A program made the position numbers and the translations under genes. Positions 8,900 to 64,000 of a stretch of 64,000 nucleotides of DNA are shown here, in pieces (within the stretch, counting starts at the first letter, position 1; each line of letters begins with the position of its first letter). The notes beneath the pieces were generated by a model. That model saw nothing but the letters and a program-made list of their open reading frames with translations, was not told where the DNA came from and made no database searches. Source of the DNA: Clytia hemisphaerica. Taxonomy: Eukaryota > Cnidaria > Hydrozoa > Leptothecata > Clytiidae. Location: assembly GCA_902728285.1 (NCBI GenBank), contig CACVBU010000910.1:1496080-1560079 (forward strand). The letters run 5' to 3'.

Positions 8900-10360
8900 C
8901 TAATCATAGGTAACATTAACTTTCGAAAATTGAAGCTTTGGAGTTACCAATCGCAATATGGCAACCTCTGCTAGGGAAATGTTGGTACAACAGCATTTAC
9001 AACTGCCAAGCATTATCTTCATCAAACCCTGTCGAGAGTGACAAACAAATTGTCTCTGCATTGAACAAGTTAAGCTTGAGCAAACTGAAAACAACCCTTT
9101 CAAAACACCTAAACTGGCAAGCTCTTTGTAGTGATGAAACCTTTGACCCACTTATTGGGTCCAAAATTCTCACTGACTTCAATGCCCTACCTTGATTTGA
9201 TTTACATAATTATTCTGAATTTCTCAAAGTGGCAAACAAAGCATTAAATCTACTTTCAGATTTCTTGAACTTCTGACAGTGACACTGTAACCAAAAGTCT
9301 GAGTCTGTGAAATTCTTTGAAAGTAAATCATTAAGTGACAATTGTAACGTTTGGAACTTATTTAAAGAAATTTCAGGAAAAAATAATCAGCCCAAAACTT
9401 TATCGCTGTGAAAATAGGCTTAAAATATGGAAAAACCACTCAGAAAAGCAACTTGAAATCCCAGTGGTAATTGGTGAAAATGATGTTGTAAAAATTTTCA
9501 ACAAGCTTAACAAAATTCGAAAAGGTGAATTCGTCAATTGAAGAAATATAAAACGCCTTTGACCAAATGAAGAACAGAAAGGCTTGGAACTGATTTTCTA
9601 CCAGAAGAGTTTTGGAAAATTGAAGAGCTCCAACAGCACCTTCTTGACTTCTGCAAAGCAACCTACAATGATAACAAGCCAAGCGAATAGGGCCTCTTGG
9701 GCACCTGTTCAGAAAAAAGGACATCCAATTAAAACTGACAATTACAGAAGAATCTGTCTTGCTCAAACCACTTTGAGTCGTCTGATCCTAAAGTGTATTC
9801 TCCCTGCCATTGAGAAAGTATTAAGACCAAACGAAAATGGATTTTGTGAAAACCAATCACTGTCACCTCATCTCCTAACTCGCCGAAGATTAATCAAAGA
9901 GATCAAGAACCATAATCAGGAGGCAATTCTTGTCTTTGTTGCCTTCAAAAAGGTATTTGATTCAATCATCTGTGATAAAATATTTTTGATTTTGGAAGCC
10001 TACATGATTTTGATGGTAACAGTCAATGCAATCCAGACAATCAATTAAAGATAAGTATAGTATATGTATAGTATCCACACACATCGTAACCAGAGTCATT
10101 CTTGGAGATCTGTTCACACCCTTACTATTTATTTTATGTCTTCAATTTACTATACATACTTCAATTGTTGGTTCTGATAAATTTTTTCTCTAACGATGCA
10201 GGGTCAAAGATACCCTCTACAAATTCACAGTGACCTTGATTTTGCCTTATCTAGTCAATCATTGTCAAGGCCAAAAAACCTTCTACTGAGAGTGGAAAGA
10301 GTCTGTTAATCAGTAGGCCAATTTCTCAACTCCAAGAGAACAAATTCACGATAGTCAACT
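8900..10360 (+). mobile_element. decayed LINE (non-LTR retrotransposon) with reverse transcriptase
   Basis: The frame at 9584-10048 carries a reverse-transcriptase core: PVQKKGHPIKTDNYRRICL, then the finger/palm segment ending FVAFKKVFDSI, which corresponds to FxDFxKAFDSI in LINEs. Upstream frames at 8938-9195 and 9335-9541 look like the region between endonuclease and RT. Near 10230 a remnant reading DLDFA followed by LSSQ marks the FADD region after a small deletion. Stops and frameshifts make it inactive. It sits in what may be an intron of the minus-strand gene. Confidence 0.8.
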
Positions 10361-40200: not shown

Positions 40201-43200
40201 AACAATGTTGTATATAAAATTAGGAATTCAATAGTATACGTTATTGTTATAAATTGTACATTGAAAATTTAACGATAATGTATCCAAAAAAAAAAAAAAA
40301 CAAGCAACATGCTGAATGGACCTACCTAATGATTAACATCAGATGAAAATAAGAAAAAAGTGACAATAATTGTACAAAAATTCAGAATGGAAAAATAAAG
40401 CTTGTGTGTTGAATAATGTAAAATGGTAAGAAGGAATTTCCCAAAATACGAAAATCACTTGAACCATTCAGGCCCAAAAAACCTTTTAAGCTATTTTTGG
40501 CCCAAATTTGCCCAAAATAATTTTCCTTAAAAATCTGGCTTCGTCACATTTTGGGCATTGCCATTTTGCATCATTATGCAAAAAATCAGAAATAAATTAT
40601 GAGTCAACATTGAGAAAAGCTATATTTTCTTATTTGGTTAAAGGGAATTTCCCCAAAATACGAAAATCCGTCTTTTAAGGCGAATAAGAATTTCCCGGGA
40701 AAAACCACTTCTGTCATTCTTTAGAGAATCTTGCCCTCCATCTTTGTACAAAAAATCAGAAAAAAGCAATAACAGGATTTTGCACAAAGTCCAAAAAACC
40801 CTATTTTAGGCAGTTTTTGGCCCAAATTTGCCCAAATATATTATTTTTCGAAAATCTGGCTCCGTCACATTTTAGGCATTACCATTTTGCATCATTGTGC
40901 AAAAAATCAGAAAAAAATAATGAGTCAACTTTGATAAGCTATATTTTCTTATTTGGTTAAAGGGAATTTCCCCAAAATACGTAAATCCGGTTTTTAAGGC
41001 GAAGAAGAATTTTCCGGGAAAAAACCACTTCAGCCATTCTTTAGAGAATCTTGCCCTCCATCGTTATACAAAAAATCAGAACAAAGTAATGACAGGATTT
41101 TGCAAAGTCCAAAAAACCCTATTTTTAGGCAGTTTTTGGCCCAAATTTGCCCAAATATATTTTTTTCGAAAATCTGGCTCCATCACATTTTAGGCATTAC
41201 CATTTTGCATCATTGTGCAAAAAATCAGAAAAAAATATTGAGTCAACTTTGAGAAAAGCTATATTTTCTTATTTGGTTAAAGGGAATTTCCCCAAAATAC
41301 GAAAATCCGTCTTTTAAGGCGAATAAGAATTTCCCGGGAAAAACCACTTCAGTCATTCTTTAGAGAATCTTGCCCTCCATCTTTGTACAAAAAATCAGAA
41401 AAAAGTAATGACAGGATTTTGCACAAAGCCCAAAAAACCCTATTTTTAGGCAGTTTTTGGCCCAAATTTGCCCAAATATATTTTTTTTCGAAAATCGGGC
41501 TCCGACACATTTTAGGCATTGCCATTTTGCATCATTGTGCAAAAAATCAGAAAAAAATAATGAGTCAACATTGTTAAAAGCTATATTTTCTTATTTGGTT
41601 AAAGGGAATTTCCCCCAAAATACGAAAATCCGTTTTTTAAGGCGAATAAGAATTTTCCGGGAAAAACCACTTCAGCCATTCGTTAGAGAATCTTGCCCTC
41701 CATCTTTGTACAAAAAATCAGGAAAAAGTAATGACAGGATTTTGCACAAAGTCCAAAAAACCCTATTTTTAGGTAGTTTTTGGCCCAAATTTGCCCAAAT
41801 AAATTTTTTCTCAAAAATCGGGCTCCGTCACGTTCTGGGCATTGCCATTTTGCATCATTGTGCAAAAAATCAGAAAAAACTAATGAGCCAATCCTGAGAA
41901 AAGCTGGTAACAGACGGACGGACGAACGAACGAACGAACGAACGGACATGGGTTAATTTATAGGACCTCCACCGGGGCACCCGGAGGTAGGTCCAAAAAA
42001 CTTTAATAGTAGGGGGCAAACCCTTAGGACCCGTGACATCTTTTATGCGACGCAACCAAGTTGCATTTTGACGTCATTTTCGATCGATTTTCTCGATTTA
42101 CGTTTGGAAATCGACTATATCCACTTAAAAGTCCTATATGTCGTTTTTCGAGAGCTTTCGATTGGTATAAGTGGTTTCGAGTTTTATCGAGTTTGAAATT
42201 AATTAATTTTGAAATTTTAGAGGTGTTGTGACGTCAGTTTTTGAGTCACAAAAAAATTTTCCTAGGCCTTTGCGAAAACTCCTCGCGAAGAACTCTTTAA
42301 AGTTTGGTTGCGTTACATTTTAAAGATGTCACGGGTCCTCTAAAGGTTTGCCCCTAAAGCTGATCATTCACTTTCTGCTAAGATTCTATCTAGCCTAGTT
42401 TTATTTTCTACTCTGTAAATTTTTAGAAATTTGATAAAATTTGAACATTATATGGATTGATCAAGCGGGAAAAGTTTACCTAATCCTAACTTTTTTATAA
42501 ATTTGGTTGACAATGGATTCGGAAAAATGTTGTGCAGATAATGCCCGTGCTCAAATATTGATGGATTAAGAAATTGTGAAAAAGAAAACACATCAACTTT
42601 GTATTGAAACTGTTTTTCAAAAAAACTTTGGGTCTGCATTTTAAACTTTGTTTGAAATAATGTACGCTACAGAATTTTTCCCGATTGGCCTGAGAAATAT
42701 GTTATTGTTTAATGATGTTATTTTTTCTTTTCCTTTAAGAATAAAATACCTCTATTTTCAGATATAAACTTTGCCCTTATTCACTTCATCCCTCAGTTAG
42801 TTATTTAAAAGATTCACTTTCTAAACTTCTTTCTATTAAAATGGTATCGTTTAACGTATCTTCTACCATTTTGCTTACGCAGCATTTTTAAACTAAAGAA
42901 TGAACCAACTTTTGAGAAATTCTTTTATCGATTCTTGTTTTGTCAGTATAAGTCTCGTGCCTGCTGCTTCATATATCATGCGAAAGAATATTTTTTACTA
43001 TTTTGTAGCGAATCTGAAGAACTACCAGAATGATCATGACAGCCCTGACAAACCACAAAATCACCAGTACCAACAACAACAACAACAACAACTCCAGCAA
43101 GATTTACATTCTGGTGATGAAGAAAGTCCTCTCATGAAAGCACTTAACGAATCACAAAATAAAGGCACTCTTGCCAACACCTACAGAAGCCCCAACTCCA

Positions 43201-46200
43201 GTATGAATGCTGGGCAAAGTAAGTATTCACTGATGTTTTGTAGCATTTTCTATATCTAAGTTGATATGAAAAATGTTCGATATTGCAGTCGAATGCGGTG
43301 CCTAGCTTTTTGAAATATGATTTTTTTTCCAGACCACAAATCACCAAAAACATATGCACGAGGTGCTGCTCTCAAAGAACTCAAAGGAATCGGTTCAAAG
43401 GTAAGACCACTTTTATCTAGTTCGCTGAAAAATAGTAGGACCCTCCAGGAGTATGACTTAAGACAATTGTAAAATAGATTTTGATGATGACAGTCAGTTC
43501 AAAATATTATCAGTAGTCAAATGTGTAATCGGTCGTCCTGGTGAATGTCAATCTTTATCAAAACGTCCGGTTGTTCATAGACCTTTCCATAACAGCCCCT
43601 TTCATATAAATATCCTCACAAAAACGAATGTTTAACCCTCAATTCTTTCTGCTTCATCCGAAACACTCGCCTAAAAACTCATACTTCACACCCCTTTAAA
43701 AAAGTTTCACTCAATTCACCGTTCAAGCACTTGCTAATTGAAAATGAAATTCTTTAAAACCCTGTAAACATTAAAATAAATATCTAAATATTTTATTTGA
43801 TTATCATGTCCCGACTGATGCCCTAGACTTATGCCTTATGTAAAGCAATTTCTATGGGCTATATCGTCGAAAATTTCAGTAGTTGCATGATGATAGTCCA
43901 TTACAGTAAGGAAAGTTTTCAAAATTACCAAATTTATAACATTGTTCTTTGCATTGTTCTCAGAGTCCACGTGATCAAGTAGAGCAAGACGAATATAAAT
44001 CATTTCTTCGACAACAAGTATGAGCATTTACTTTTTTTTCACTCCCGTTACGTTTCTCACGAATAAGGTTCGGCACTTTAGGGAATCTGCAGTATATGAC
44101 TCCCAAGCGATTTAAACTACCTGAAAACCGGGCCGGTCTTTAGACGGTCTATTAGGGGCCGGTAAAAGTTTACCAAAAGGACGCTACGAGTTCAGTTAGT
44201 TTAGCGACAGTCAAACGAGCAGCCAAGGAGCGGTCAAATGAGCACCTACGAGTGCCTAGGAACGTTCGAAATCAGATTTTTCGAGAAGTCTTGAAGATCG
44301 ATTTAAATCAAAAAATTTAAGTAAGAACACTGGGCTGCTCGTAAAGTACCAAGACCGGTACAATTTTCATGTGCTTTAGGTCGCTTTTGGGGAGTCACAT
44401 AATGGCTTCTGGCTTTTTAACAACATTACCTCTTTTTATTTGCTTTCTTGACTAAAGCTAGAAATTCACATTCTCAGTGACAACGGCAGCATATTAGGTT
44501 ACGCATGAATCGTCGGAACTTGGGAATCATTTTGAGATAAATGAAAAAGTTTCCAACACTATTAAAGAATATAGCTTCAATGCAGAATGAAGCTGCAAAC
44601 TGAAATGTTATAAATTCATCATCATTCATTTCGCTATTTGTGAATGATTCGAATAGGATTATAGTAATTATCTTTGCAAGCACCATGGAAACGGCAAACA
44701 CACTGAAAAGAAATCTCAAAGTTTTTAAAGCTTTTTCGTTGCGCACTCGAGATTGAGATTCTTGTCGGCTTTCCTTCAACACTTTTGACATTTTGAAATA
44801 CAAAACAACCAATATGACCAAGAAAAGAAATGATATTGATGTGTCTACGTTAAGAACATGTTCACCATAAAAATACAGAATCTGTGAATCCACATGACGT
44901 TTTAGGTATGGTAGATTTGGTAGATATGCTAAAAATGACGCTGTTAAAGTTGCCATGGAGCAGCCAAAGTAACGCCGTTTTGTCCATTTCCTTTGAAAAG
45001 GAAAGACAATGCTTTGGTATCTCAGCAATGAGACTAAAAATAGACCAAACATCGATTGAAGTAGCAAAGGTGTCGTCAAGCTAGTTATCTGTTCAATTGC
45101 GTCATTTTTAGAAAACAACTCTAACTCCATCAAATGACGGGGTGCTTCTGTAACGCAGATACCTAAATCGGTGATCGCCAAAAGTAATAAGAGAAAATGA
45201 TACGTGCTCATTTTTTTCAAGTGTTTCCGGTTACTGCTGATGATATAACAAATAATCAATGAGTTGCATATGATTCCTGTGAGTTTTATAACGAATGCAA
45301 AATACAAATTGAAAATGCCAACATAGCCTAATGGCTCATAATAGCCTGATCCTGAACCAGATCCACTGAAACTATCATTCCGGGAGTCTTCCACCTCTGA
45401 TGTTTGATTTGACCATTCTTGATCTCCTGATATGTAAATATCTTCGCCTGACATGACACAGTCACCAATATTAGTATTTCTTTTTGACAATTAAAAAAAA
45501 GTAGGCTTGCTTCGACCTTCTTCAAAATTTCATCAGTCAAATTGATGGTAGGTCACGTTGATGATCCTTTTAAGCAGTAAATCTTTAAGCTATTTTGTTG
45601 AGGCTTTTGTTTTAAATATATATTAAAGTTATATACTATTGTCGAATGAAGTTTAATAATGTGTTTTATTTCAATACTAATAGTTTCACGCCGTGGAGAC
45701 ATCATCAGTTGAAAATAAATTATTTTTTTAACTACTAGAGTTCGTTTTAAATGTTTACGAAGAACAATGTACTGGTTTCTTTTGACAGCAATTTGACGGC
45801 AGTCTTTTATTAAAGTTATAAAAAGAACATCCTGCTAAAGCCCGTGTTTTTTTAAATCAAGAATAAGATAAACATTTCCTCTTTCTTTTTTTGCCTTTCA
45901 ATAATCGACGTCAAGGAAACTTTTTCATATGTTTATTTAGATTTTTTGTAGAAAATGTCTTTACGTTCCTCTTTGGTTCAAAGAATTCGACTGCGAAAAA
46001 AAATTTTTATTCATTTTCATAGCTCATTAATAAAAAATACCAACATCCGGTATCTTTCGGCTTTGTCTTATGATCTTCTTCGTGACTACTGTGATTTAGT
46101 TATCAAAAGAAATCCGCTGAAAATAAAAAGGGCCAGTGCAGTCTGTTTCTCTATAACATACCCTTCATTCTGACATTTTTCCTAAACCTTATTAGGGGAT

Positions 46201-48209: not shown

Positions 48210-49417
48210 GTATGTGAACTCTAGGCGTACATTTAAACGTCAAAAAATGTCTTCTCGGTTAATTTCAGTAAAAAGAAAAGATTTCAAAATATTTTCCTAA
48301 AACTGAATGAGCCAGTGAAATAGTCTAAGCATGTGCTTGGTGGGAAATATTTTTGAAAAATTAATTAGCGATTTGATGCGTATAGTGTCCAAGAGTAAAA
48401 GACAAACATTTTGTCAAAGACATTTGTCTTACTTTCATGTATTGTTTTTTACTTGCTATTACGCTTTCGAGTTCTATACAAGGTGTCTGGAAAAAAAGTA
48501 TCGAGTCGTACCACTTCTATAGAAAGAAGGTTCTTGTGCGTGTTTCACTAAATTTGCAATGTTTAAAGTTCTCTCTGTGTCATATTAATTGTCATGAGAC
48601 ATCTTTTATGAATAGCTTTTACAAAAAACAATTCTCAATAACTTTAACGTCATGAAAATTGCAAAGAAAGTTAATTCTTTTTAATCATAATTACTGTTGT
48701 AAAAACGATTATTGCTGTGTTGGTATATATTTTCTTACATTTTGTTTAACACACCCAACAACCTACTACTCAGAATCATGTTTGAACTCGATATTTTTTT
48801 TCCGGACACCCTGTAGAATAGTTAAGAGAAGATTAGCCTAATTAAATTCTCGCAACTTTTTTTCTGTTATAATATGTATAACATTTCAGAGAGTGTGAAT
48901 TGCTTTTATTATGGATCCATAATCATTTACTTCAAATCCCTGGCCTTCTCCGTTGTTAAAAAAAAAGACTATTTACGAGAAGATTTCCAGACAAAAAGAA
49001 AAAGAAAGCAATGAAAATTTTAATTTACCATAAACGATCATTATGACCAATTATAACAAAATTACAGAAAACTTATTTTTTCATATTTTTTTATTTTGAT
49101 CGTCATTAAAAAGTTCCCGAAACTTCTATATAGAAAGTCATTTTTTGGTAGTTAGAATAGTGAATGAAAAAATGAAAATCTGATTATTGTTTTTATCAAC
49201 GTTCTTGATATGAATTGATGGGGGTAAACGAAGCAAAAGACGAAATTCATTGTTATGACATAGGATGCATGTACGTACGAAGTGTACGACTAAGAAATTA
49301 TTCTAAATTTCGATTTCATAAGGGTTGGTTCTCGTTAGTCAGCCGCTACATACTACAGCCTGAATAAAATTTTAACAACAAACTTTTGTACACTTTCCTC
49401 ACAAACAGTGTGATGTA
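48210..49417. other. no further CSPP1-like exon recognised
   Basis: Searched by eye for the C-terminal CSPP1 motifs and found none. The short frames here (48331-48841) are AT-driven. Confidence 0.4.
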
Positions 49418-50308
49418 ATGGAAAGCAATACAGAGTTTACAATATCAATGAATAGCTCTTTTATCTTTGGTACCATATTCACTCTAATGACACCCATTGG
49501 ATGTTTTGGTAATATTGCATCCATTATTTGTTTGCAAAAGAAATCCCGACTTCAACGAACCAAAATTGATAGTTTATTGAAATCACTTCTTGTGTCAGAT
49601 CTATTGGTCTCTCTCACAGTTTATCCGCTCAGCGCATATCTTCAATTCACCAGATACCGAGACGTCCTGTCAACTCTGGCGAACGTGGTGTTATTATTGA
49701 GTTTGACGTCAATCTCGTCTGTAACTGTAGTCTTCTTAGCTGTCATCAAATACATCAAGATGTCCAGATTCACATCTTTTGATCGGATCATCACCAAGAT
49801 ACGATTAAAAATAATGATCGCTACTTCATGGGTTGTCCCTATAGGTGTAATTTCACCATATCTAGTCAGTAGTACTTACAACGCTGGAATCTTCACTATG
49901 ATCACATGCTTATCCACTTTGATTATTCTCCCTATCTTTTACTATCGTATTCATAGAATTCATAAAGAATCATCTGATCGAATTCATCATTCTAGAAATC
50001 ATGAGCCAGGCCAATTGAACCATATAAGCCCTACATCTCAAAGAGTGATTAAAAGAGTTTTGTGTTTGGTTGGTGCATATTTTGTATGCTCTGCACCAAT
50101 GATTCCTTCAATGATTTTATACCGTTCGGGTGTCATTACAAATAACTTGCTTCCTCATTTCGTCTTGATGTTATTCGCTGGAAATTCTTGTATCAATCCT
50201 ACGCTTTTCCTTCTCACCGACTCAGGAATACGAAAAATGAAGAAAAGATTTTTTAACAGATCACTGACTGTTCCACAGAAAATAGAACAAACTACTACGC
50301 ATGTTTAA
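49418..50308 (+). CDS. rhodopsin-like (class A) orphan GPCR, intronless
   Basis: The 296-residue seven-helix protein has a short glycosylatable N-terminus (NTEF, NSSF). TM1 has FGNIASIICL, TM2 has LLVSDLLVSLTVYP, TM3 ends VFLAVIKYIKM (IKY in the DRY position), TM4 has ATSWVVPIG with the conserved Trp, and TM5 has LIILPIFYYRI. TM6 has CLVGAYFVCSAPMIP (a CWxP variant) and TM7 has CINPTLFLL (NPxxF). The fit to class A is better than for the receptor at 44474. No retinal-binding Lys is present in TM7, so an opsin is unlikely. Ligand unknown. It lies 1.2 kb beyond the last CSPP1-like exon found, on the same strand. Confidence 0.92.
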   Translation: MESNTEFTISMNSSFIFGTIFTLMTPIGCFGNIASIICLQKKSRLQRTKIDSLLKSLLVSDLLVSLTVYPLSAYLQFTRYRDVLSTLANVVLLLSLTSISSVTVVFLAVIKYIKMSRFTSFDRIITKIRLKIMIATSWVVPIGVISPYLVSSTYNAGIFTMITCLSTLIILPIFYYRIHRIHKESSDRIHHSRNHEPGQLNHISPTSQRVIKRVLCLVGAYFVCSAPMIPSMILYRSGVITNNLLPHFVLMLFAGNSCINPTLFLLTDSGIRKMKKRFFNRSLTVPQKIEQTTTHV

Positions 50309-52341: not shown

Positions 52342-55300
52342 TCAAATTTCAAGTAGTCCTTGTTTTTTTAATGAGCCCTTGATAATGATCTGCCTCACTA
52401 AAACAAAAATGTAACGTGCGATTTCATTTCCACTGGTGTTAAAAACTGTGTAAATCTCTCTTTGTCTTTTGCCTTTATGAAATGTGAGACTCTGAAATTT
52501 TGATTTGATTAAATCAGAGCATTTATTAAACGTTTCTTGAGTGAAATTTTCTGGCATATTAAGGACAATGATGATTGGAATTTCAGGTAACCAATAGTCG
52601 TTACAGATAGAATACATCAATTCAAAGCTTTCCTGTGATGCGTTTTCTTCCTTGCTTTCCGAGTCTAAGATTGTCGTACAAGTGTTTTTGTTTAAACAGT
52701 AGATGATAGCTGTGATTTTGTTTATACGAAAAATTGAATCACTATTGTGTTCTGACGGGGCACACCCTACTTCCAAAATATTGTGATTCATACCTCCTTT
52801 AGTTAGTCGGATTGAAGAAACACCGCTTTCGCATGTTTTTGCATGTAAAAAATTATGTTGTACGACTTCATCTTCGCATAGTTCTTTCATGGTTGATAGA
52901 AGTACAGGGCTCTTCAAAGTCAGTATAAACTCGCCTCCTTCTACCAAAGAAAAGAAGGTTTTAGCAGCTGTTTTTGTTGCGTCTGCTGTAAACTTAAAGA
53001 GGTTATGTTCTCTCATCAAATTGAGGGCTACTTTCATCGAGTTAACCAAATAGTCGTTCGTTCCATATTCGTAAAGTGCACCTTCAAAACCACCATTAGA
53101 AATGGTGAGGTGTTTAGTAATCTTGCTTTTATCTGATTCTTTATCTCCCAGTAAAAGCAGATTGACTGTTTTATCTACTTGATTGAACAAATGCAAGATA
53201 CGGTTACCATTGATAGTAGTGGTGGCTGTATCTCCCCCATTGTCGTACAAATATTGCATTATGCGTACTTTGTTATTCACGGCTGCACCTGCTTCGTGAA
53301 ATGGTGTGTAACCAAATGCGTTTTGTTTACGCGTTATCTCTTTACTGTTTGAACGTTCGCATATTGTTTTCAATGTTGGCAATATACTGTGACCATCCAG
53401 ATTATGCGATTTTGCAACGAAGTGTAATGAATTGTTATCATTGATGTCAACTACGGAAAAATCCTGTTCGTATAAAATGTATCGCTCCAACGTGTTTTCC
53501 AGGACTGTTGTCATTTCCTCCTCCAATAATCTCATGAGGAGTGTTTGGTTTTGACGAGGTTTCTTATTTCGCAGTGAGTTTAATAAATGTGGTTCTTCTT
53601 CTATCAATATGTCCAACTGTTTAAAGTCACCCTTCCGAAGGATGTTGAAGACGTCTAAAATTAACAGAAATTGTACACTTAATCGCACGATGGGTTATTT
53701 TTTGTTCTTATTTTGCACGCCCTCAAAGAGAGCAATTAATCGTTAATTGCATCCTGTAGAGAGCAATTAATCGTTAATCACACTCGCCAATGCCGCGCCA
53801 ATGTTTACAAAATTAATTTTCATGTTTTTTTCTTACTTTTTTTTTGCATCGAACATTTTAATTGCATTCGAAATTTATTTTGGGAAAAAGAAAATCAATA
53901 AAACAATAAAAGAAAGACATAAAGAGAAGAGAAAAATATAAAACTCTCAGTGTAATTTCTGTAATTTACTTTCCTAAACAGTGGCGTGGTGGCAGGGGGG
54001 GCCAGGCCCCCCCCCAGCGGAGCCCTTTTGAGAAGGGGCGCCCTAAAATAAGGGACGCCAGGAAGGATTTTTCAGGCGCCCATATCGAAAGATTGACAAA
54101 TGAAAAAACAAAAATGGCGCCCCTCATCACCTCAAAAGCTCAAAATTTTCTGGCTCGCTTCGCTCGCACACTCCCTTTTTTGTCTTCATAATGAGCGTAT
54201 AGAGAGGGGCGCCAAAAAAACTTTAAAAAGGGCGCCATAAATGCCTTGGCCACCCCAGAGAAATTTTCCCACCACGCAACTGTTCCTAAAACTGGGAAAA
54301 ATTAGTGAAAGCCATTGTGCGATTAGCTCGTAATCACATAACAACTCGTACAATTCGAAAATTGCACTCGTGATTTTTTTGTTTCAAATTTTCCTCGTCC
54401 TTTCGGACTCGGAAAAATTAATAACAAATAAATCACTCGTGCAATTATATTCGAATTGCACTCGTTGTCATGTGATTACATATACTAATCGCACGATGAG
54501 TTATTCTTTCTTATTTGGGGCGCCTTCAAAGAGAGCAATTAATCGTTAATTGCATCCTGTAGAGAGCAGTTAATCGTTAATCACACTCTCGATGCCGTGC
54601 CAATGTTTACAAAATTGATTTCGATGGTTTTTTTTTAATTTTTTTTTTATGGAACGTTTTAATTGTATTCGAATTTCATTTTGTGAGAAAGAAAATCTAT
54701 GAACTTTAATAAAAGAAAAGCATAGATGGAAAAACAAAATATAAAACTTTCAGTGTAATTTACTTTCCTAACGGGGAAAAAGTAGTGAAACAAGTTGTGC
54801 GATTAGCTCGTAATCACATAATAACTCGTACAATTCGAAAATTGCACTCGTGATTTTTTGGTTTCGAATTTTCCTCGAACTTTCGGACTCAGAAAATTAA
54901 TAACAAAAAAATCACTCGTGCAATTATTCTCGAATTGCACTCGTTGTCATGTGATTAAATATACCTAGGTGTTATGTTAAAAAAATGTTTCCTGGAGTTC
55001 GTGTTAAGTGTCGACTGTGTTTCGAAAATATTACGGGAACACTAGCGAGTAATTAAAACCAAAAACTGGAACTTAGTGAGCTAATGATTCTCTGAAAAAG
55101 AGAAGCTTTTTTAGTGTTTTGACATAAATTCGATCTTTTCACTACTGCAAGAGCTTCGATAGTTCGAATATTTTACTCACCCTCAAATGATAAAGTCCTA
55201 CCATCCAACATCATCATCTCATAGTAGATTTCTCCATTCCACTTGCTGAAATGAATATCAGTAACATATATATAAAAATCATTTCCATAAAAATTTGAAA

Positions 55301-58300
55301 ACTTTTTGTTTAAAATGGTCCCTCAGCTCGTGGATTAGCCCCGTTATTGAAAATTTAGTATAACTTTGAGGTTAGAAAACAACCGGCGTAGTGGTATAGT
55401 GGTTATCGTTCTTGACTTCTGTCCAGAAGGCCCGAGTTTGATACCCACCGTGGCACTACGATTCACTTGGCAGGTGAATGCTCCTTTGCCCGGGTCAACA
55501 CATGCCATGTGAGGGGAATTGGGTATCATAACTCTGATACAAGAGTATGGGTAGACATTCCAGACATTGTGGTGTGACACTTAAGAGGTTCTACACCTGC
55601 GTGGAAATCCGTTCTCCCGTGTAGTTCGAGTGTCGTGGTATACACCATAGTTCGGCAGCTCGCATCTGCAGGGTTGCAATGTCTGCTTGCGCTGTGATTC
55701 CTACTCCACCGTGGGTAGGACTCATTCCAATGCATCGGAGGGCATATCTATCTAGCAAACAACCTATCATGACCCATCTTTTTTAAGTTCCTTAAGTGAA
55801 TAGATAGGAGCAGGCCGTCAGAGGGAGATAGATGTGTATTTATTTCATTAAATAACTGTTAACTGAAGGAACGAGGAAACACTTGTTCGAATAAAGATGA
55901 CATTCGAATTATGGAGGTTAGAGTTAAACCGACTCTACTGAGTATAATGATTTGCCCCTATTTTCCACAAACTTGGTCGATAGATATGCAAAATAGAGTT
56001 AACGTTCGTCACCGTACCTTTTGTTCGGCTTTTTCTCCAATGTAAATCCTTTCAAGTACCTAAAAATACATATAAAAATTTACCTTGATTATGCTTTAAA
56101 GTTAGTTTTAAAAGAGCTTTGGAAAAGCAAAAAATGCTTTACTTCAAAAATGTTTTTAATTAAGGAGTCTTATTCAGAAAACTGTGGTCCAGGCTCTAGA
56201 TGTATGCCTTTGTCGTTTACATGTTACCATATAATTCCAATCAAATCTAAAGCAATAAATAAAACTGTTACAACTTACTTGAATGAATTTTGATTATCTT
56301 CTAAGGATTGCATTTCTTGAAACGTGTTCATTTCATCTTGATTTGCTTCAAACGTCTTCACATTTGAACCATTTTCGTCGCTTACAGCTACCTCTATGAC
56401 ATTGTTCTTCCTTGAGACTGTTTTGACCTTCGATGAGCTGACTAACCCCTTCTCTTGCCATGTTTTCAATACACTACTGAACGAAGTTTTCCCCTTGGAG
56501 GGCAGGATAAGCAAATCCAACTTGTTGATGGTTCTGGTCAACATCTCAACGTACATATTCTTAGCGATGCGTTCGTTTTGATCAAGAAATAAAACACAAT
56601 GTTCAATCTCGCAACCTCTGAATGCTCGGTAGTCTGTTATCAAAACTTTTCTTGATTTGGAAAGTGCTTCTTTCTTTTCTTTGATGCTTGGGTATCGGTT
56701 TAACAGGGATGGTATAAAAATGGAAACTTTGGATGGTCCATAAAGATCAGTTAATACGCTTTCAGCCAACCTTGCTTGCTGGATCGTGTTACAGATAACA
56801 GTCAATTGGAGATCATTCCTGGCATATGTCTTGAAAATCATCGATAAGGTTGGGACAGCTTCATATCGTTGCGAAGAGAACTTCTTGTCAAGGGAAATGA
56901 TTCTAGGGTTTTCATCGCTGCTGATGTTGTGCCCACTTTCACCTTGGATGTAGGACAGAGTGATTGACAACTTTTTTGTCACATTATTTGATTTTAATAT
57001 GACACCACTTGCGATTTTTTCTGGGTCATGAAACTTTGATGAATCAAACAAGGTTTCGATACTATTGCTTGATTGTATATTACCTGGGTATCTTTGTTCC
57101 TTCTGCAGAGTCGGAAATGTCAACCATTGACCATGAACAGCCATTTGGTGGTCCTGTTCCATCTCTAAATTTGTAGCAACAGTATGAGTCGATTCATTTT
57201 TTGAGACCTGCTTGCCAAAAACACGATCTGTAAGAGCTTCTGTTGGTTCATCATCGGTGACAGCAACTTCGACGTTTTCTATATCACCTCTAGTTAAACG
57301 CTCTTTCTGATCACTTTTAGTAAAACGATTTTTAAATGATTCGTAAACAGTGGTTTTGTGACTTAATGGAATGATGATTGGGTCCTTCTCAATTTCTTTC
57401 TGGAAAACTTGTACCATTTGATGAATATCCACTGACATTCTCATTGTCTTGGTTAAGTTGAAAACAGACATTCGAGTTTGATCCAAACTGCATCGTTCTT
57501 GTGTTTTCACTTTGCCTATTCATGAAAAAATTATAAAAATATTGTTAAATTGATAACATCTTACGCATTAGTCTTTTGACCTTCATTTTTTTTTAATGAA
57601 AATTGCTCCAGGTAATCTCTGTCAATCAAGTTCTCTTCGCGTATGAAATGAATTTATTTTACCTTTCATGCTCAGTTCTCGAATTTTGTCGACACTTTGA
57701 AGAGCAAATACGACAGTTGAATCAGCGAAATATTTGGTCATACTCTTCTCCAGTTCTTCAACATAAGACACCGTTAGAAACTCTTGTGGAAATTCGTCAA
57801 TCAAAACATGGATTTTTGTTTCTTCCAGATGTGATGGTTGACCGTCAGACGATCTAAGTAGTAAATGAAAGTTAATAATCATTGGAACCGAATTGAAAAC
57901 GAACTTTTATTGCAAAATGTAATTTGAAAGTCAACTTTTCTCGAAAATCTCTTCGTTCGCTTTTGTAAGCGTAAGCTATTTTTTTGAAAATTGGGCTCCG
58001 TCAGATTTTAAACATTATCATTTTACATCACTGTGCAAAAAAATCAGAAAAAAATACAAATCCAATCGGGAGAATCGGTTCTTTTTCCCTAAAAATCCGA
58101 TTTTTAAGGCCGCAAAAAATTTTCCGAAAAAAACTGCTCGTGCCACATTTTAGAAAACATTACCCTCTATCTTTATGCATAAAATCATAACTAATGAAGC
58201 AATTTCACACAAAGTCCAAAAAACCCCATTTTTAAGCACTTTTGGGCCCAAATTTGCCCCCAAAAAAACATTTTCTTGAAAATTTAAAGGACCTCCGAGG

Positions 58301-61300
58301 TAGGTCCAATAACAACTATGACTTATTAGAGCCTGAAAATAGTCTATTAGCACCAACTGACTCGTGATACCGTCGAACGAAAAAAGTAAATCAATCGTAC
58401 CCTTTCTGAGTGTTTTCTTGCACCTCTGTGACACCATTATCTAAATTGGATTCCTTTCGAAGCAAGTGCTCGAGAACAACAGTGAGATTCTTTTCTGGGG
58501 GTTGAGTCAGGCTATAAACATCTTCAATGGAAACATGTTGACAATCACTCAGTGCGTCTCCAATGCTCATAGCTTTAATTCTCGGCTTCAAATGCTCCAT
58601 ATTCTCCTCGATACAAAGAGAGTCAAAAGATTCTTGAAATTTAACGTCGACAAGCGAGTAAGGATCAAAGCTGATGTAATAAATTGAGCTTTGACTTTCT
58701 TCTTTGAGGAGTTTTCGAACTACCTCATGAAGTATGATTGATTTTCCACTCCCAAATGGACCTTTGATAACTTTCCAGTTGGCAGGGCTGTTAATAATAT
58801 CAATCTGCTCACCTGTCAATAGAACGGTGTCTATTTTGGTGGTCACGTCATCCGTCACTTTCGGCAAATAGAGCGTCGTTTGTGCCATGGAAGCCATCAG
58901 CTCTCCGCAAAATCCCTCCAGTACGCTTTCCATGGATTTGAATTTGACTGGTCGAATCTGCTTCATTTCTTTACTCATATTGTGGAGGATCTTCTCGAGT
59001 TTCCGTTTAAACGAATCATTGTTATCCCAGTCGTCTTTGAGAAAAAACAATTCCGATTTCAGGTAATCCTTACTGAAGCATGCAGTTGCGTTGAATTTGT
59101 TTTGGTCAATGTTGGGACACACCAGTAAACCAGTGATTGAGATGAAGCCATTTTTCATTGGATCACTGCTGACGTGGTAAATGGTCTTCAGAATGTCATT
59201 CAACTGTGCCACGCTTTCTTGTATGGAATGGTCATCTGTTTGCTCGACGACAACACTGACCAATACTTGACAATCACCAGGGATGATAGTGATCACCACA
59301 TTCTCAAATGAATCGCACCTCGAAGTCATAATGTCATCATAACATTGTTTCATATCAACGCCCATTAGTTTGAGGTGATTTACAGGGTGGTAGGGCGTTA
59401 ATATTTTGATATCTTGATTTTGAAAGCTTCGGTGCTTCTCGAATCTTGCTGCAAGCTGGCTAACAACGTTATTTTCCAGATAATGAGATGGAGGGAATCT
59501 CATTAAGTTTTCATGGTCGGTATAATATTTCCTTGCTCTAGTTCTGAATTCTCCAACAGTTTTGGCAATCTGTGGACCGGCTCGTAAGGGCTTGCATTCT
59601 TGATTGTCTTTGATAGGCATCAATGGTTTGAAATGGTGGATATTTTCAGGGAGGCCATTGTTACATGCCCAAATTAGAATGTCCTGCTTTCTTGAAATTG
59701 TTTGACTGACACCCTCGTCTGGAAAAATGGAACAAGAATTCACTTTCAAAAGTTTGGGCTTTCAATAGTGGGGCGAGTTAGCACTTATTAACGTAACGAA
59801 ACTTCACAATTATGCACAAACTCTCGTCATGGAATTTTGAATGAGTTTTTTGAAGTTGAAGTTTTGAAGTTATCAAGGTAATCGGTGAAATGACGTTTTG
59901 GTTGGCTTAACAACAAAAGGTTATTTTTGGGATCATCGATAATGCTTTGGCCTTACGGGAGGAGCACCTTCTGGTCATTTTTATATATTTTGCCAGAAGT
60001 TAATAAGGGTTTGTAATTTGCTGATGACGTCATTGTAAGTCTTCTTAGGCAAAGCTAAACAAGAAGCCCAGAGGGCATGAAGGCCCAGCGAATAAAAGTA
60101 TGAACTGAACAAGACTTGAGTAGCAGAGGGGATTTGAACCTGGAGTCGCTAATACAAGCCATAGACGCCTTAGACCATTCGGCTATTTCTTACTTACAAC
60201 AATAAGAAACAATTCATAATATTTTTTAAATCTTATATACAGAGATGTTTTTTTCCTAACACGTGAACAACTGAACTGTTCACATGATAGAGAAATGTAA
60301 AAACAACTTTTTTTTAAAAGAACATCTTCCTAAAGAGAAGAAGGTTTGTCACGGTTTGTTACATTGTTTTTCTTAAAACACACTACATCTGTTATGTTCT
60401 TATAGTTTTAATAGTTAATTGTATTTTCTCCTTTTATGTTTTTAACCAATAAAGACGATTTCGATTGTTTTTTATTCTGTCAATCATGTTCTAACAGCCA
60501 ATCAAATCCTTCACAATCTGAATTAGCCTGTGCTTGAAAACGCCATATATGAAAACGCGTATCGCCTAGTAAATTGTTACACACTGACACCGGGCAGAAT
60601 GCTAATGAAAGGCCCAGTACGCTAAAGCTAGCTGGGCCAAAAATGTCGTGTAATCTGAAACACGTTGACGAAAGCTGACGAAATGTCCCATACATGTTTT
60701 AGCATCAGAATTTTGTATTCTTTTTTATGGAAATATTCAAGAAGCCTTAAGTTGTCAGAAAACTTGCGAAAAAAGATTTTCTGTTTTGGCCCTAGGGAAA
60801 CTACCAATTTTCCTTAGGCCAAACTTAGGTCAAACTGGAAATGACAGATTCATCATCACCATCAACTATAGAGCGTCGAATCCTGATGCGAAACGTCGTC
60901 TTGAAGTGAGCTGACTTAGATTTTCGTCAACTGGATCAGATTTCATTGCATTTTTTCATTTTGCCTGGAAAAGCATACGATAACGTCATCAGCAAATTGC
61001 AATTTGATAGAAAAGTATTCAAGGCATGATTTATATATTAAAAGTGGTCAGCACTTTGTGCAACAAAGGAGTGATAAAAAAGGTATAAAAACAATAGTGA
61101 ATAAGCTGAAAACTTTAGCGAAATCATAGAACTTTCTCAGTATGGATACCTTTAGCTTTAAACTTGATATCAAAATCTTCGTCAGTTCCATCCAATTGTT
61201 TTGTTCTAACCAAGAAATGGTAAACATAATCTGGAAGGAGTTCTTTGGTGATTTCAATCAATATATCATCTTTAACCAACGAAACTTTGTAATCGATCCC

Positions 61301-61433
61301 TTGCAAGTCTTCATATTCGATTTCCAAATCATTACTTTCTTCTTTACCATAGTGGATGCTTTGAATCTTATCGATTGCTAATGTTGGTTTGTGAAGTTTT
61401 ATCAAGACGTCCTTGAACAAGGTCTTCACTAGT
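52342..61433 (-). CDS. SF1 helicase-type NTPase fused to ankyrin repeats and a pseudo-G-alpha domain (6 exons, 5' incomplete)
   Basis: Exons in order: 61150-61433, 58401-59718, 57663-57853, 56279-57515, 55181-55245, 52342-53654. All five introns are GT-AG and all phases close. The product is at least 1,468 residues; no Met lies in the first exon seen, so an upstream exon is missing. Domains: FN3-like beta module (1-94, LPDYVYHFLVRTK); mixed region with VLVSVVVEQ, faintly nuclease-like (about 240-260); Q motif LTGEQIDI; Walker A GPFGSGKS (414-421); Walker B VLIDEF (to 555); motif IV-like TMRMS; motif V ITDYRAFRGCE (890-900); motif VI LTRTINKLDLL (922-933). Then come ankyrin repeats (about 1033-1190, FGYTPFHEAG) and a G-alpha-like domain (about 1195-1468): LLLLGDKESDKSKI for the P-loop, CESGVSSI, EVGCAPSEH for DVGGQRSER, ITAIIYCLN, FELMYSICNDYW, IIIVLNMPEN for FLNKxD, IYTVFNTSGN and a GLLEI tail. 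The NTPase sites look intact; the G-alpha nucleotide sites do not. The function is unknown. Confidence 0.85.
53680..54965. repeat. tandem pair of repeat copies in the ankyrin/NTPase gene intron
   Basis: Unit 1 (53680-54480) and unit 2 (54484-54965) share AATCGCACGATG, two GAGAGCAATTAATCGTTAAT motifs, GTGCGATTAGCTCGTAATCA and CTCGTTGTCATGTGATTA. Unit 1 is longer because it contains the hAT-like MITE. Confidence 0.8.
53979..54282. mobile_element. hAT-like MITE, 8-bp TTCCTAAA target duplication
   Basis: The ends CAGTGGCGTGGTGG and, inverted, CAGTTGCGTGGTGG are flanked by TTCCTAAA on both sides (53971-53978 and 54283-54290). An eight-base duplication plus CAGTG-type ends is the hAT signature. 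The second repeat unit (near 54765) has one TTCCTAAC and no insert. Confidence 0.9.
55385..55785 (+). repeat. tRNA-derived SINE
   Basis: The head GGCGTAGTGGTATAGTGGTT contains an A box and GAGTTTGATACCC a B box at tRNA spacing. It is followed by about 330 bp of GC-richer body. It lies in the intron between the NTPase exon at 56279 and the exon at 55181. Confidence 0.7.
57965..58306 (+). repeat. one-unit copy of the GGACCTACCT-ended element
   Basis: It carries one CCCAAATTTGCCCC landmark, the TGCAAAAAAATCAGAAAAAA motif and the terminal GGACCTCCGAGGTAGGTCC. It occupies the short intron between NTPase exons 2 and 3 (57854-58400). Confidence 0.75.
60010..60995. mobile_element. possible inverted-repeat element carrying a tRNA-like relic
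   Basis: GTAATTTGCTGATGACGTCA near 60015 is mirrored near 60980-61000 (ACGTCATCAGCAAATTGCAA). A second shared block, TTAGGCAAA/TTTTGCCTGG, lies just inside. The element is in the intron between NTPase exons 1 and 2. Confidence 0.5.
60120..60186 (-). repeat. tRNA-like relic (probable SINE head)
   Basis: On the minus strand, AGCCGAATGGTCTAAGGCG resembles a tRNA A box and GGTTCAAATCCC a B box. The acceptor ends pair with two mismatches and the T stem is poor. A functional tRNA is unlikely. Confidence 0.4.
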
Positions 61434-61705
61434 CTAGAACCAACATCAAAAGTTAAAATCCATTCGCCTTAACTGTGCATTAAAGTCCATCCGCTTATAA
61501 GTGTGCACTAATTTTGTTTTGTTTGTCTTTTTTTTTAAGTTTTGAAAGAGTTTAACAAGGTTTTTTAACTGGTGCCGCCCACCCTCTTGAGGCTGTAACT
61601 TTTGATATTATAACTTTGTATGAAAAATGATTATATGGCTGAGATCAGGAAGGTTCGAAGTACAGGATATTTCACAAAAAAGTATTCTCAAGACATTAAA
61701 GTAAA
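61434..61705. other. no further NTPase exon recognised
   Basis: The exon at 61150-61433 has an acceptor (GGTTCTAG), so an upstream exon exists, but none was recognised here or to the right edge. Confidence 0.4.
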
Positions 61706-63265
61706 ACTAGCCGGTACCCGGCGTCGCACGCCGGTTAAGCTGTAAGCTGAACGCACCAAAAGTCCTTTGGATGTTAAAGTTGGCTTAAAAGCACAATCAA
61801 ATAAGAAAAAAAATCTCTTCAAAGTTTCACTCTAGCCTTCCCCTGTGTCTTTGGATTGTGTACTGTCCCTGTGACGTAATTTTTAGTTTAAGTCAAAAAT
61901 TATCAGAAAGAGCATCGTTATTAGAATTATACCGTACCAGTGTCGTCCAAAACGACTCTGCAAGTTGATATTTTTCTCGCTTCGCTCGCATTAAATATGG
62001 CGTCCAGTTAAAATGACAATTCTTCAGGAAAATGCGAAAAATATGTCGTTTTTTATGAAATTTGTCGTTCTTTTTGTCTATTTTTAGTAATGCAGGATTC
62101 TTTAGATAAACCCCCTCTGAAGGTTGACTAATTTTCCCTTTTGCTTTTTATCGCCTTTTGAATGCTGTCGTTGTTTGGTTTCACAAACTTTTTTATTGTT
62201 ATGTTTTGATTTACATTTGAAATATTCTTTTCTATAAAAGGAATTTGTTTTGAAAAGAATTCGAATGTCATTAATAAATACGATCGTTAATTACATTCGA
62301 AAAGAATTTAAACAAAAGAAAAGAGAAAAACAAAACAACGGGCATGCCTCAGTAGAAATTAAAATTACTAAATGTAGACGGGCCTTAAATTTCAAAACAA
62401 AGGCTGAATAAAGTCAAAACCAGGCTCTATCCGATCTGTCAATCAAAACAAACTTATCGAGAACAAAACATTGCTTGCGAAATCGAAAGTGACACACAGA
62501 CGAAAACAGACATACAGACTACGGCTATTAATATATAGACTAGCCGGTACCCGGCGTCGCACGCCGGTTAAGCTGTATCTGAACGCACTAAAAGTCCTTT
62601 GGATGTTGAAGCTGGCTTAAAAAATGATCAACAAATGAATAAAAAGATATCTTCAAAGTTTGACTCTAACCCTCCACTGGAGATCTTTTTCTCGCTTCGC
62701 TCACGTTAAATACGCCGCCCAGTTTGAGAAAATTTGAGAAAATATTATGGTAAAGACGGGTAAAGAGGAGTAAAATGAAGAAATGAGAATTCTTCAAGAA
62801 AAAGCGAGAAAGCCACAAAGAATAGTTCAACTTTTTTTTTATCAGATTTAAAAAGATAATAATAAATTCTAAATTGTTTTTTTTAAACCCTTGTCATATA
62901 ACTTTTCGAATTTAAACATGTAAAATGACGTACACAGTTTTTAACAGTATCTTTTATCGCCCTTTGAATGCTGTTATTGTTCGACAAACTTTTTAGTTTT
63001 TATGTTTTGATTTACTTTACATTTGAAATGTTCTTTTCTATCAGGCAAAGCTGGGCAGAAATTAAAATTACTAAATGTAGATGGGCCTTAAATTTCAAAA
63101 CAAAGGCTGAATAAAGTTTAAACCAGGCTTTATCCGATCTGTCAATCAAAACAAACTTATCGAGAACAAAACATTGCTTGCGAAATCGAAAGTGACACAC
63201 AGACAGAAAACAGAAAACAGAAAACAGAAAACAGACATACAGACTACGGCTATTAATATATAGAT
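61706..63265 (+). repeat. two head-to-tail copies of an ACTAGCCGGTACCCGG retroelement
   Basis: The copies start near 61706 and 62540 with ACTAGCCGGTACCCGGCGTC, which folds through CGGCGTCGCACGCCGG. Each ends with CAGACTACGGCTATTAATAT after a (CAGA)n-like tract. Both contain GATCTGTCAATCAAAACAAA. The copies differ by indels. No coding frame survives. The fixed 3' end with microsatellite suggests a non-autonomous non-LTR element. Confidence 0.75.
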
Positions 63266-63555
63266 ATAGCAGAATATATAGTGGATTCAATTTTCTCAAT
63301 TAAAAAACAAATGAAGGTCTTAACGACCTGGTTTTACAATCCAGGAAAGAAAGAATACAAGAAAATTCGGGGGGGCGTTTATTCGAGAGGCGTTTATTCG
63401 AGGGGGCGCTTATTCGAAGTAATACGGCACTTTGCTTTTGTGAGTAACAAATCGCACACCTATCACTTGAAAATTTTGATTTCATCTAGATTCAAAAAGT
63501 TGTGAACAAATCGTAAAATCCTTTAATCTTAGAGTAGAAGATGATTCCTTTTTGG

Positions 63556-64000
63556 ACCTACCCGGGTGGAGGTCCTATAAATTAACCTTTGTCCGTCCGT
63601 TCGTTCGTTCGTTCGTTCGTTCGTTCGTTCGTTCGTTCGTTCGTTCGTTCGTTCGTTCGTTCGTTCGTTCGTTCGTTCGTTCGTTCGTTCGTTCGTTATT
63701 AGCTTTCCTCATGATTGGCTCATTAGTTTTTTCTGATTTTTTGCACAAAGATGCATAACTATAAACCCTCGAATGTGACGGACCCCGATTTTCAACAAAA
63801 AAAATTTTGGGCAAATTTGGGCCAAAAAACGGCTAAAAAACGGTTTTTTTGGACTTGTGAAAAATTAGGGTCGTTAATTTTTTCTGATTTTTTGCATGAA
63901 AGTAGGGTACCATCGTAGGTAAAAGATGGCTTAAGCAGATTTTTTCAAAAAAATTTTGTTGGCTCAAAAAACGCATGTTTATCTATAAGAATCACTATTA
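63556..64000 (-). repeat. GGACCTACCT-ended element, reverse orientation, cut by the window edge
   Basis: It starts with GGACCTACCCGGGTGGAGGT, followed by TATAAATTAACC and then, after the microsatellite, the reverse complement of the TGCAAAAAATCAGAAAAA and CCCAAATTTGCCCAAA landmarks. Confidence 0.8.
63591..63697 (+). repeat. (TTCG)n microsatellite
   Basis: About 25 consecutive TTCG units, far longer than the 4-5 units in the sister element at 41920-41945. Confidence 0.98.

Follow-up and report, generated by a model that had tools for sequence, protein, structure and literature searches.

In this report we describe a chimeric gene of the hydrozoan Clytia hemisphaerica, located on the minus strand at positions 52342-61433 of the window (the whole stretch of 64,000 nucleotides that was analyzed, taken from contig CACVBU010000910.1). 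The gene combines a superfamily 1 (SF1) helicase-type nucleoside triphosphatase (NTPase), ankyrin repeats, and a C-terminal domain homologous to the alpha subunits of G proteins (G-alpha), an order that a preliminary description of the sequence had already put forward. Gene structure and domain order are almost certainly real, as homologous proteins cross the exon joins and a second NTPase-G-alpha fusion is encoded in the same species. For the explanation as a whole, mechanism included, we see roughly even chances: the gene would belong to a cnidarian (hydrozoan) family in which a HEPN domain and an SF1-type NTPase are followed by a variable tail.

Six exons of one gene

The model is a single reading frame over six exons with GT-AG borders (Table 1), encoding 1468 residues and ending in a stop codon. 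With the product of exons 2-4 as the query, 7998 candidates were scored, yielding 17 relatives (P0001-P0017) at E values up to 1. P0001 is a transcript-derived protein of 804 residues (EukProt) whose label is in the style of Clytia, P0002-P0013 are twelve proteins of 845-913 residues with 32-34% identity, P0014 and P0015 come from C. hemisphaerica itself, P0016 stems from a metagenome, and P0017 is distant. P0014 (named "repetitive organellar protein-like" at NCBI) starts with a HEPN_DZIP3 domain, continues with the NTPase, and has ankyrin repeats at its end (Ank_2, E 1.2e-9). P0015 ("uncharacterized protein") consists of the NTPase followed by a clear G-alpha domain (Pfam, E 2.1e-100); as annotated, it starts at Walker B without the first half of the NTPase, possibly owing to a gene-model fault. 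With P0015 as a second NTPase-G-alpha fusion, the combination is not a one-off.

The alignments to these relatives carry the gene model. P0001 matches residues 1-520 of the window protein without gaps (62% identity), and P0015 matches residues 548-1016 at 48%, thereby covering the join of exons 3 and 4, with its G-alpha domain aligned separately at 25%. P0014 spans residues 41-1183, from within exon 1 to the ankyrin part, in a single gapped alignment (E 1e-143, composition correction off; residues 103-1183 and E 1.3e-131 with the correction on). The join of exons 2 and 3 falls in a loop absent from P0014 and is thus not fixed by it. Ankyrin repeats and G-alpha domain share one uninterrupted exon, so their connection requires no splice.

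The 65-nt exon 5 was the disputed one: for the preliminary description, the gene would fall apart if this exon (55181-55245) did not link position 56279 to position 53654. Since one alignment of P0014 reaches from exon 1 over the core to the ankyrin repeats, we conclude that it does link them: a counterpart of exon 5 exists in P0014 (NKWDGKRMESVTFNDRATLSFDDVWKIL against NKWNGEIYYEMMMLDGRTLSFEDVFNIL), and the residues NKWDG...TLSFDDVWKIL are common to both, running unbroken into the P0014 ankyrin repeats. That two adjacent genes, one for the NTPase and one for the ankyrin-G-alpha part, were wrongly joined is therefore most improbable. The joins of exon 4 to 5 and 5 to 6 do rest on homology, across repeat-bearing introns of ~1.0 and ~1.5 kb, but P0014 unites NTPase, exon-5 linker, and ankyrin repeats in one protein and P0015 joins the NTPase to G-alpha; on these two proteins we reject separate genes.

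Some observations on the introns and on P0001 can be added. The stretch 56018..56059 (minus strand), 42 nt long, in frame, and bounded by GT-AG, lies between exons 4 and 5 and is a possible optional microexon. We do not favor it as a constitutive exon, as P0014 and P0015 both lack it and run directly into NKW. Paired repeats ~480 and 800 nt apart fill the intron that separates exon 5 from exon 6, at 53698-54964. In P0001, residues 744-804, past the loop at window intron 2, read ...FLSMNFHKSS, which by eye resembles the FVDEFPQEF stretch of Walker B in a different frame; if so, the end of P0001 would derive from a frameshifted or alternatively spliced transcript.

Table 1. Features of the chimeric gene, with positions in the window
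Feature	Position	Strand	Remarks
Exon 1 of the model (not the first coding exon)	61150..61433	-	beta-rich module; 57% to P0001 residues 224-320
Exon 2	58401..59718	-	linker-like domain and first half of SF1 N-lobe; 63% to P0001, 35-40% to P0002-P0014
Walker A	58739..58762	-	GPFGSGKS (residues 414-421); [FY]GSGK[ST] in 17/18 sequences
Exon 3	57663..57853	-	Walker B strand and motif III region (LQSVDK)
Walker B	57784..57813	-	IHVLIDEFPQ; [IV]DE[FVY] in 17/18 sequences
Exon 4	56279..57515	-	SF1 motifs IV (KTMRM), V (DYRAFRGCE), and VI (EMLTR), C-lobe; 48% to P0015
Motif V	56608..56634	-	DYRAFRGCE; 17/18 sequences
Motif VI	56533..56547	-	EMLTR, conserved Arg; 17/18 sequences
Exon 5	55181..55245	-	65 nt; linker KWNGEIYYEMMMLDGRTLSFE between NTPase and ankyrin part; P0014 counterpart NKWDGKRMESVTFNDRATLSFDDVW
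Exon 6	52342..53654	-	ankyrin repeats, then G-alpha domain, then stop
Ankyrin repeats (exon 6, first part)	53188..53652	-	P0014 residues 1315-1447 match 53655-53200, E 1.7e-6; Pfam sub-threshold; codon score z 4.7
G-alpha domain (exon 6, second part), predicted pseudoGTPase	52345..53187	-	PF00503; G-alpha-i3; codon score z 6.7
G1/P-loop, altered	53125..53148	-	GDKESDKS vs GAGESGKS in G-alpha-i
G2/switch I, altered	52822..52848	-	LHAKTCESG vs LRTRVKTTG in G-alpha-i
G3/switch II, altered	52750..52773	-	EVGCAPSE vs DVGGQRSE in G-alpha-i
G4, altered	52546..52569	-	NMPE vs NKKD in G-alpha-i
G5, altered	52423..52446	-	NTS vs TCA in G-alpha-i

The NTPase core

The preliminary description had read Walker A, Walker B, and SF1 motifs V and VI from the sequence, and each of these proves to be conserved in 17 of the 18 sequences. 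Taken more broadly, motifs I, II, IV, V, and VI of the SF1 (UvrD-like) type occur in the window gene and in 16 or 17 of the 18, and the core comprises two RecA-like lobes of SF1 type. The predicted model of the relative P0013 (mean predicted local distance difference test score, pLDDT, of 68, and ~75-90 over most of the core) has SLFN11 and SLFN14 as its first matches in Foldseek (SLFN11, E 9.2e-11) and UvrD as its first match in VIA-align, its fold overlapping the linker plus helicase of the SLFN proteins. By these motifs and this predicted fold, the NTPase is a UvrD/Schlafen-like SF1 core with its catalytic motifs intact.

Pfam found no NACHT or NB-ARC match in the window; P0001 reached E 0.065 only against NACHT, and nSTAND_NTPase5 scored 19.5-21.3 bits (cut-off 34) while covering the Walker A part alone. 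NCBIfam and PADLOC likewise gave weak P-loop matches only (best E 0.0035 and 9.7e-5, respectively). A search of a viral structure library gave generic helicases, with a Hokovirus 3'-5' helicase as the best (E 1.7e-11). Pattern scans of viral contigs and prokaryote genomes, derived from a seven-row alignment, gave 138 and 172 stretches, none of which was confirmed; only two short patterns were used, so distant relatives may exist there.

Ankyrin repeats and a degenerate G-alpha domain

The ankyrin repeats are upheld by the match to those of P0014 (Table 1), although Pfam leaves them below its cut-off. As for the G-alpha-like part at the C terminus, the 436 residues of exon 6 pass the Pfam G-alpha family (59 bits against a cut-off of 48.8, E 5.8e-16), and their best match among solved structures in the PDB is G-alpha-i3 (E 7.7e-15). 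Given both scores and the existence of P0015, we reject chance similarity. Nothing aligns to G-alpha ahead of strand one of the GTPase fold (KTVNLLLLG), and the P0015 domain likewise starts at that strand. Both domains appear to lack the free N-terminal helix alpha-N, which serves G-beta-gamma binding, and in the window protein ankyrin repeats occupy its place. The whole G-alpha part (52345-53187, minus strand) lies without introns in its single exon, which might reflect capture of a retrocopy.

That this tail serves as a switch module, as was suggested earlier, finds no support in the window gene. All five nucleotide-binding motifs are altered, making a GTP switch unlikely, and in comparison with P0015 the domain lacks ~36 residues ahead of switch I and ~16 following G4. 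PseudoGTPases of class (i) do not bind nucleotide, and those of class (ii) bind it without hydrolysis (PMC5593906). The window domain, as far as its residues tell, fits class (i): a predicted pseudoGTPase that derives from G-alpha and that we do not class as a working G-alpha subunit.

P0015 degenerated differently. Its G-alpha domain keeps GTHDSGKST (G1), the switch I Thr, NKTD, and TCAID but has His in place of the catalytic Arg and Thr in place of the catalytic Gln; on this basis it would fit class (ii). Loss of these two residues would be expected to favor a GTP-locked state. The tail could then have an active signaling output by way of G-alpha effectors, as the nucleotide-binding motifs retained by P0015 would allow. 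We consider this very unlikely, since the window gene has all five motifs altered and P0015 itself stops several residues before the receptor-contacting tail.

Alternatively, the tail or the whole gene may be decaying and functionless. The five altered motifs, the two internal deletions relative to P0015, and the lower identity of the tail to P0015 (25%, as opposed to 48% for the NTPase) would all suit decay. However, the 436 codons of exon 6 are free of stops, where 1000 shuffles had 14 or more, the in-frame codon score of the G-alpha part lies 6.7 standard deviations above shuffles, and the SF1 motifs and splice sites are intact; we thus hold decay to be quite unlikely, if a little less so than an active output.

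The front of the gene

Exon 1 of the model has no in-frame ATG start, and P0001 runs 226 residues further upstream. This extra N-terminal stretch of P0001 is homologous to the HEPN-bearing end of P0014 (31%, E 4e-22; RNDLKH in P0001 against RNLILH in P0014), the domain itself being recognized at the start of P0014 as HEPN_DZIP3 (PF18738) with E 1.7e-22. Judged by these relatives, only the first coding exon or exons are missing from the window, and the start of the gene lies further upstream than first modeled. A HEPN domain in this very gene is thus predicted from its relatives. The FN3-like module that had been assigned to exon 1 was not borne out, the Pfam match to Fn3_Dep-1_3rd reaching 12.5 bits (cut-off 26, E 0.14).

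P0001 and P0014 both start with MGxxxS (MGCTLS in P0001). This form suits N-myristoylation, and a start of the MGCTLS type is also found in G-alpha-i/o proteins.

A proposed HEPN-SF1 family with a variable tail

In the explanation we propose, family members would share an N-terminal HEPN RNase-type domain (predicted from the relatives), a beta-rich module, a linker-like domain, the SF1 ATPase core, and a C-terminal tail that varies: ankyrin repeats in P0014, G-alpha in P0015, and both in the window gene. By analogy, such a family may be seen as an RNase and SF1-type sensor with a variable end. Driven by ATP, the NTPase core would serve both as sensor and as conformational switch. The output would be RNA cleavage by the HEPN domain, much as in Schlafen-11 (RNase plus SF1 core) or in HEPN-NACHT receptors, with the variable tail determining what is bound. 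The window G-alpha, no longer cycling GTP, would be a nucleotide-independent protein-interaction domain, serving as bait or scaffold for the usual binders of G-alpha. ATP hydrolysis, RNA cleavage, and the bait or scaffold role are all inferred here. The same applies to the innate-immune role suggested for the gene earlier, which gains support from the HEPN_DZIP3 domain of P0014, a domain tied to cnidarian NLR-like proteins, and otherwise keeps the standing it had.

Critically speaking, several results weigh against this explanation. By sequence, the core has no match among solved helicases (best E 1.4), and Pfam gives weak, sub-threshold matches only for exons 2 and 4 (P-loop families, PhoH). 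The AlphaFold model of exon 6, predicted from two rows, has a mean pLDDT of 38, hence its G-alpha fold rests on sequence. Queries with exon 6 alone or as part of the full protein brought up no homolog at E 0.001 (3722 and 4645 candidates), in searches whose length limits excluded P0015 and in which P0014 was not recovered. The start of P0001 is by itself unrecognized by Pfam. Finally, no HEPN exon was found in 61000-64000 with a two-sequence profile (128 open stretches, best E 0.99), nor in the window by tblastn (E up to 1); the exon thus lies beyond the window edge or is absent.

Another view of the tail is that of an integrated decoy, where a freed copy of a host signaling protein would let a HEPN-NTPase receptor sense microbial proteins through their binding to, or modification of, G-alpha. 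Integrated domains in plant nucleotide-binding leucine-rich repeat receptors (NLRs) are a known precedent. Also in favor are the degenerate state of this copied signaling protein, its place at the variable end of an NTPase that resembles a sensor, and the differing tail domains among members. Surfaces targeted by microbes should be kept in a decoy, yet ~36 and ~16 residues are missing relative to P0015, and we rate this view as unlikely, though ahead of both decay and active output. Our own proposal can also be extended to a hydrozoan HEPN-SF1 receptor family, parallel to the Schlafens and the HEPN-NACHT NLRs, whose C-terminal slot captured a G-alpha that is predicted to be GTP-locked in some members and nucleotide-free in others; it would serve an RNA-cutting innate sensor as its bait or as a tethered output. 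We offer this fuller version tentatively, as a doubtful one only slightly ahead of the decoy.

Comparison with known systems

Within the family, P0014 shares with the window gene the NTPase, the linker, and the ankyrin repeats and differs in ending after the latter, whereas P0015 shares the NTPase-to-G-alpha fusion and differs in having no ankyrin repeats and in keeping its nucleotide-binding motifs. Outside it, group III Schlafens (SLFN11, SLFN14) are alike in having an RNase-type domain in front (for the family, via P0014), a linker-like domain, and an SF1 core. They are unlike it in that the N-terminal domain seen in the family, that of P0014, is HEPN and not a Schlafen core and that the window gene adds ankyrin repeats and G-alpha at its C terminus. 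SWAVDL is the named linker motif of Schlafen group III (PMC11615386), and no [ST]W[AS] occurs in any of the 18 sequences.

In animals, HEPN_DZIP3 is recorded in fusions with NACHT, ankyrin, CARD, DEATH, and further modules (PMC3710099). Leucine-rich repeats aside, it is also the domain most often joined to NACHT in C. hemisphaerica and in eight further named cnidarians (PMC8260672). Such cnidarian receptors likewise carry HEPN_DZIP3 in front, a P-loop NTPase in the middle, and variable repeats at the end (PMC8260672, PMC3710099); the window gene and its family differ in having an SF1 helicase-type NTPase instead of NACHT, plus a G-alpha tail.

Two further systems resemble the tail. Plant extra-large G proteins (XLG) combine a long N-terminal extension with a G-alpha-like domain whose nucleotide motifs are degraded, have a link to defense, and can act there without GTP; their extension is a Cys-rich region and not an NTPase, and they are plant-specific (PMC8584482). 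The pseudoGTPase domains of p190RhoGAP, too, are GTPase folds embedded in a larger protein; each of their five G motifs is degraded and they bind no nucleotide (class (i)), but they are Ras-like and not G-alpha, and they were characterized biochemically, whereas the window domain is known from its sequence (PMC5593906). Among the open-licence papers searched, no described protein has the domain order of the window gene.

Surroundings in the window

On one side of the gene lie two single-exon reading frames for rhodopsin-family G-protein-coupled receptors (GPCRs), at 44477-45490 (minus strand) and 49376-50305 (plus strand), with 7tm_1 matches of E 9.4e-12 and 1.3e-10. An array of ~320-nt repeats occupies 40484-41947; related repeats recur in inverted orientation at 63561-63896, and intron 2 contains a related copy in direct orientation near 58038-58266. 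At 9563-10045 (plus strand), a reverse-transcriptase fragment scores 23.6 bits for RVT_1 (cut-off 29.6). In intron 1, the stretch at ~60121-60196 (minus strand; GGTTCAAATCCC) looks tRNA-like by eye; it has no ARAGORN or Rfam match, and scans with both tools found nothing in the window.

Biological meaning

From one side, the gene is ordinary, being one more cnidarian NTPase-plus-repeats protein of receptor-like build; what is new is the combination of SF1 core and G-alpha. Many classical receptor types known from other animals are missing in hydrozoans, which raises the question of what they sense infection with. Here, a family appears to mix parts of three defense designs (HEPN RNase, Schlafen-like SF1 core, and repeats), with a G-alpha tail that shows two different kinds of degeneration in two related genes. 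If our explanation is true, G-protein machinery would be tied, with no GPCR involved, to an NTPase sensor inside the cell. A captured G-alpha acting as bait or output would be an animal counterpart of the integrated decoys of plant NLRs. It would also be an animal example, open to experiment, of a signaling domain that was captured and is catalytically dead. Close relatives of the gene are present in the laboratory animal C. hemisphaerica.

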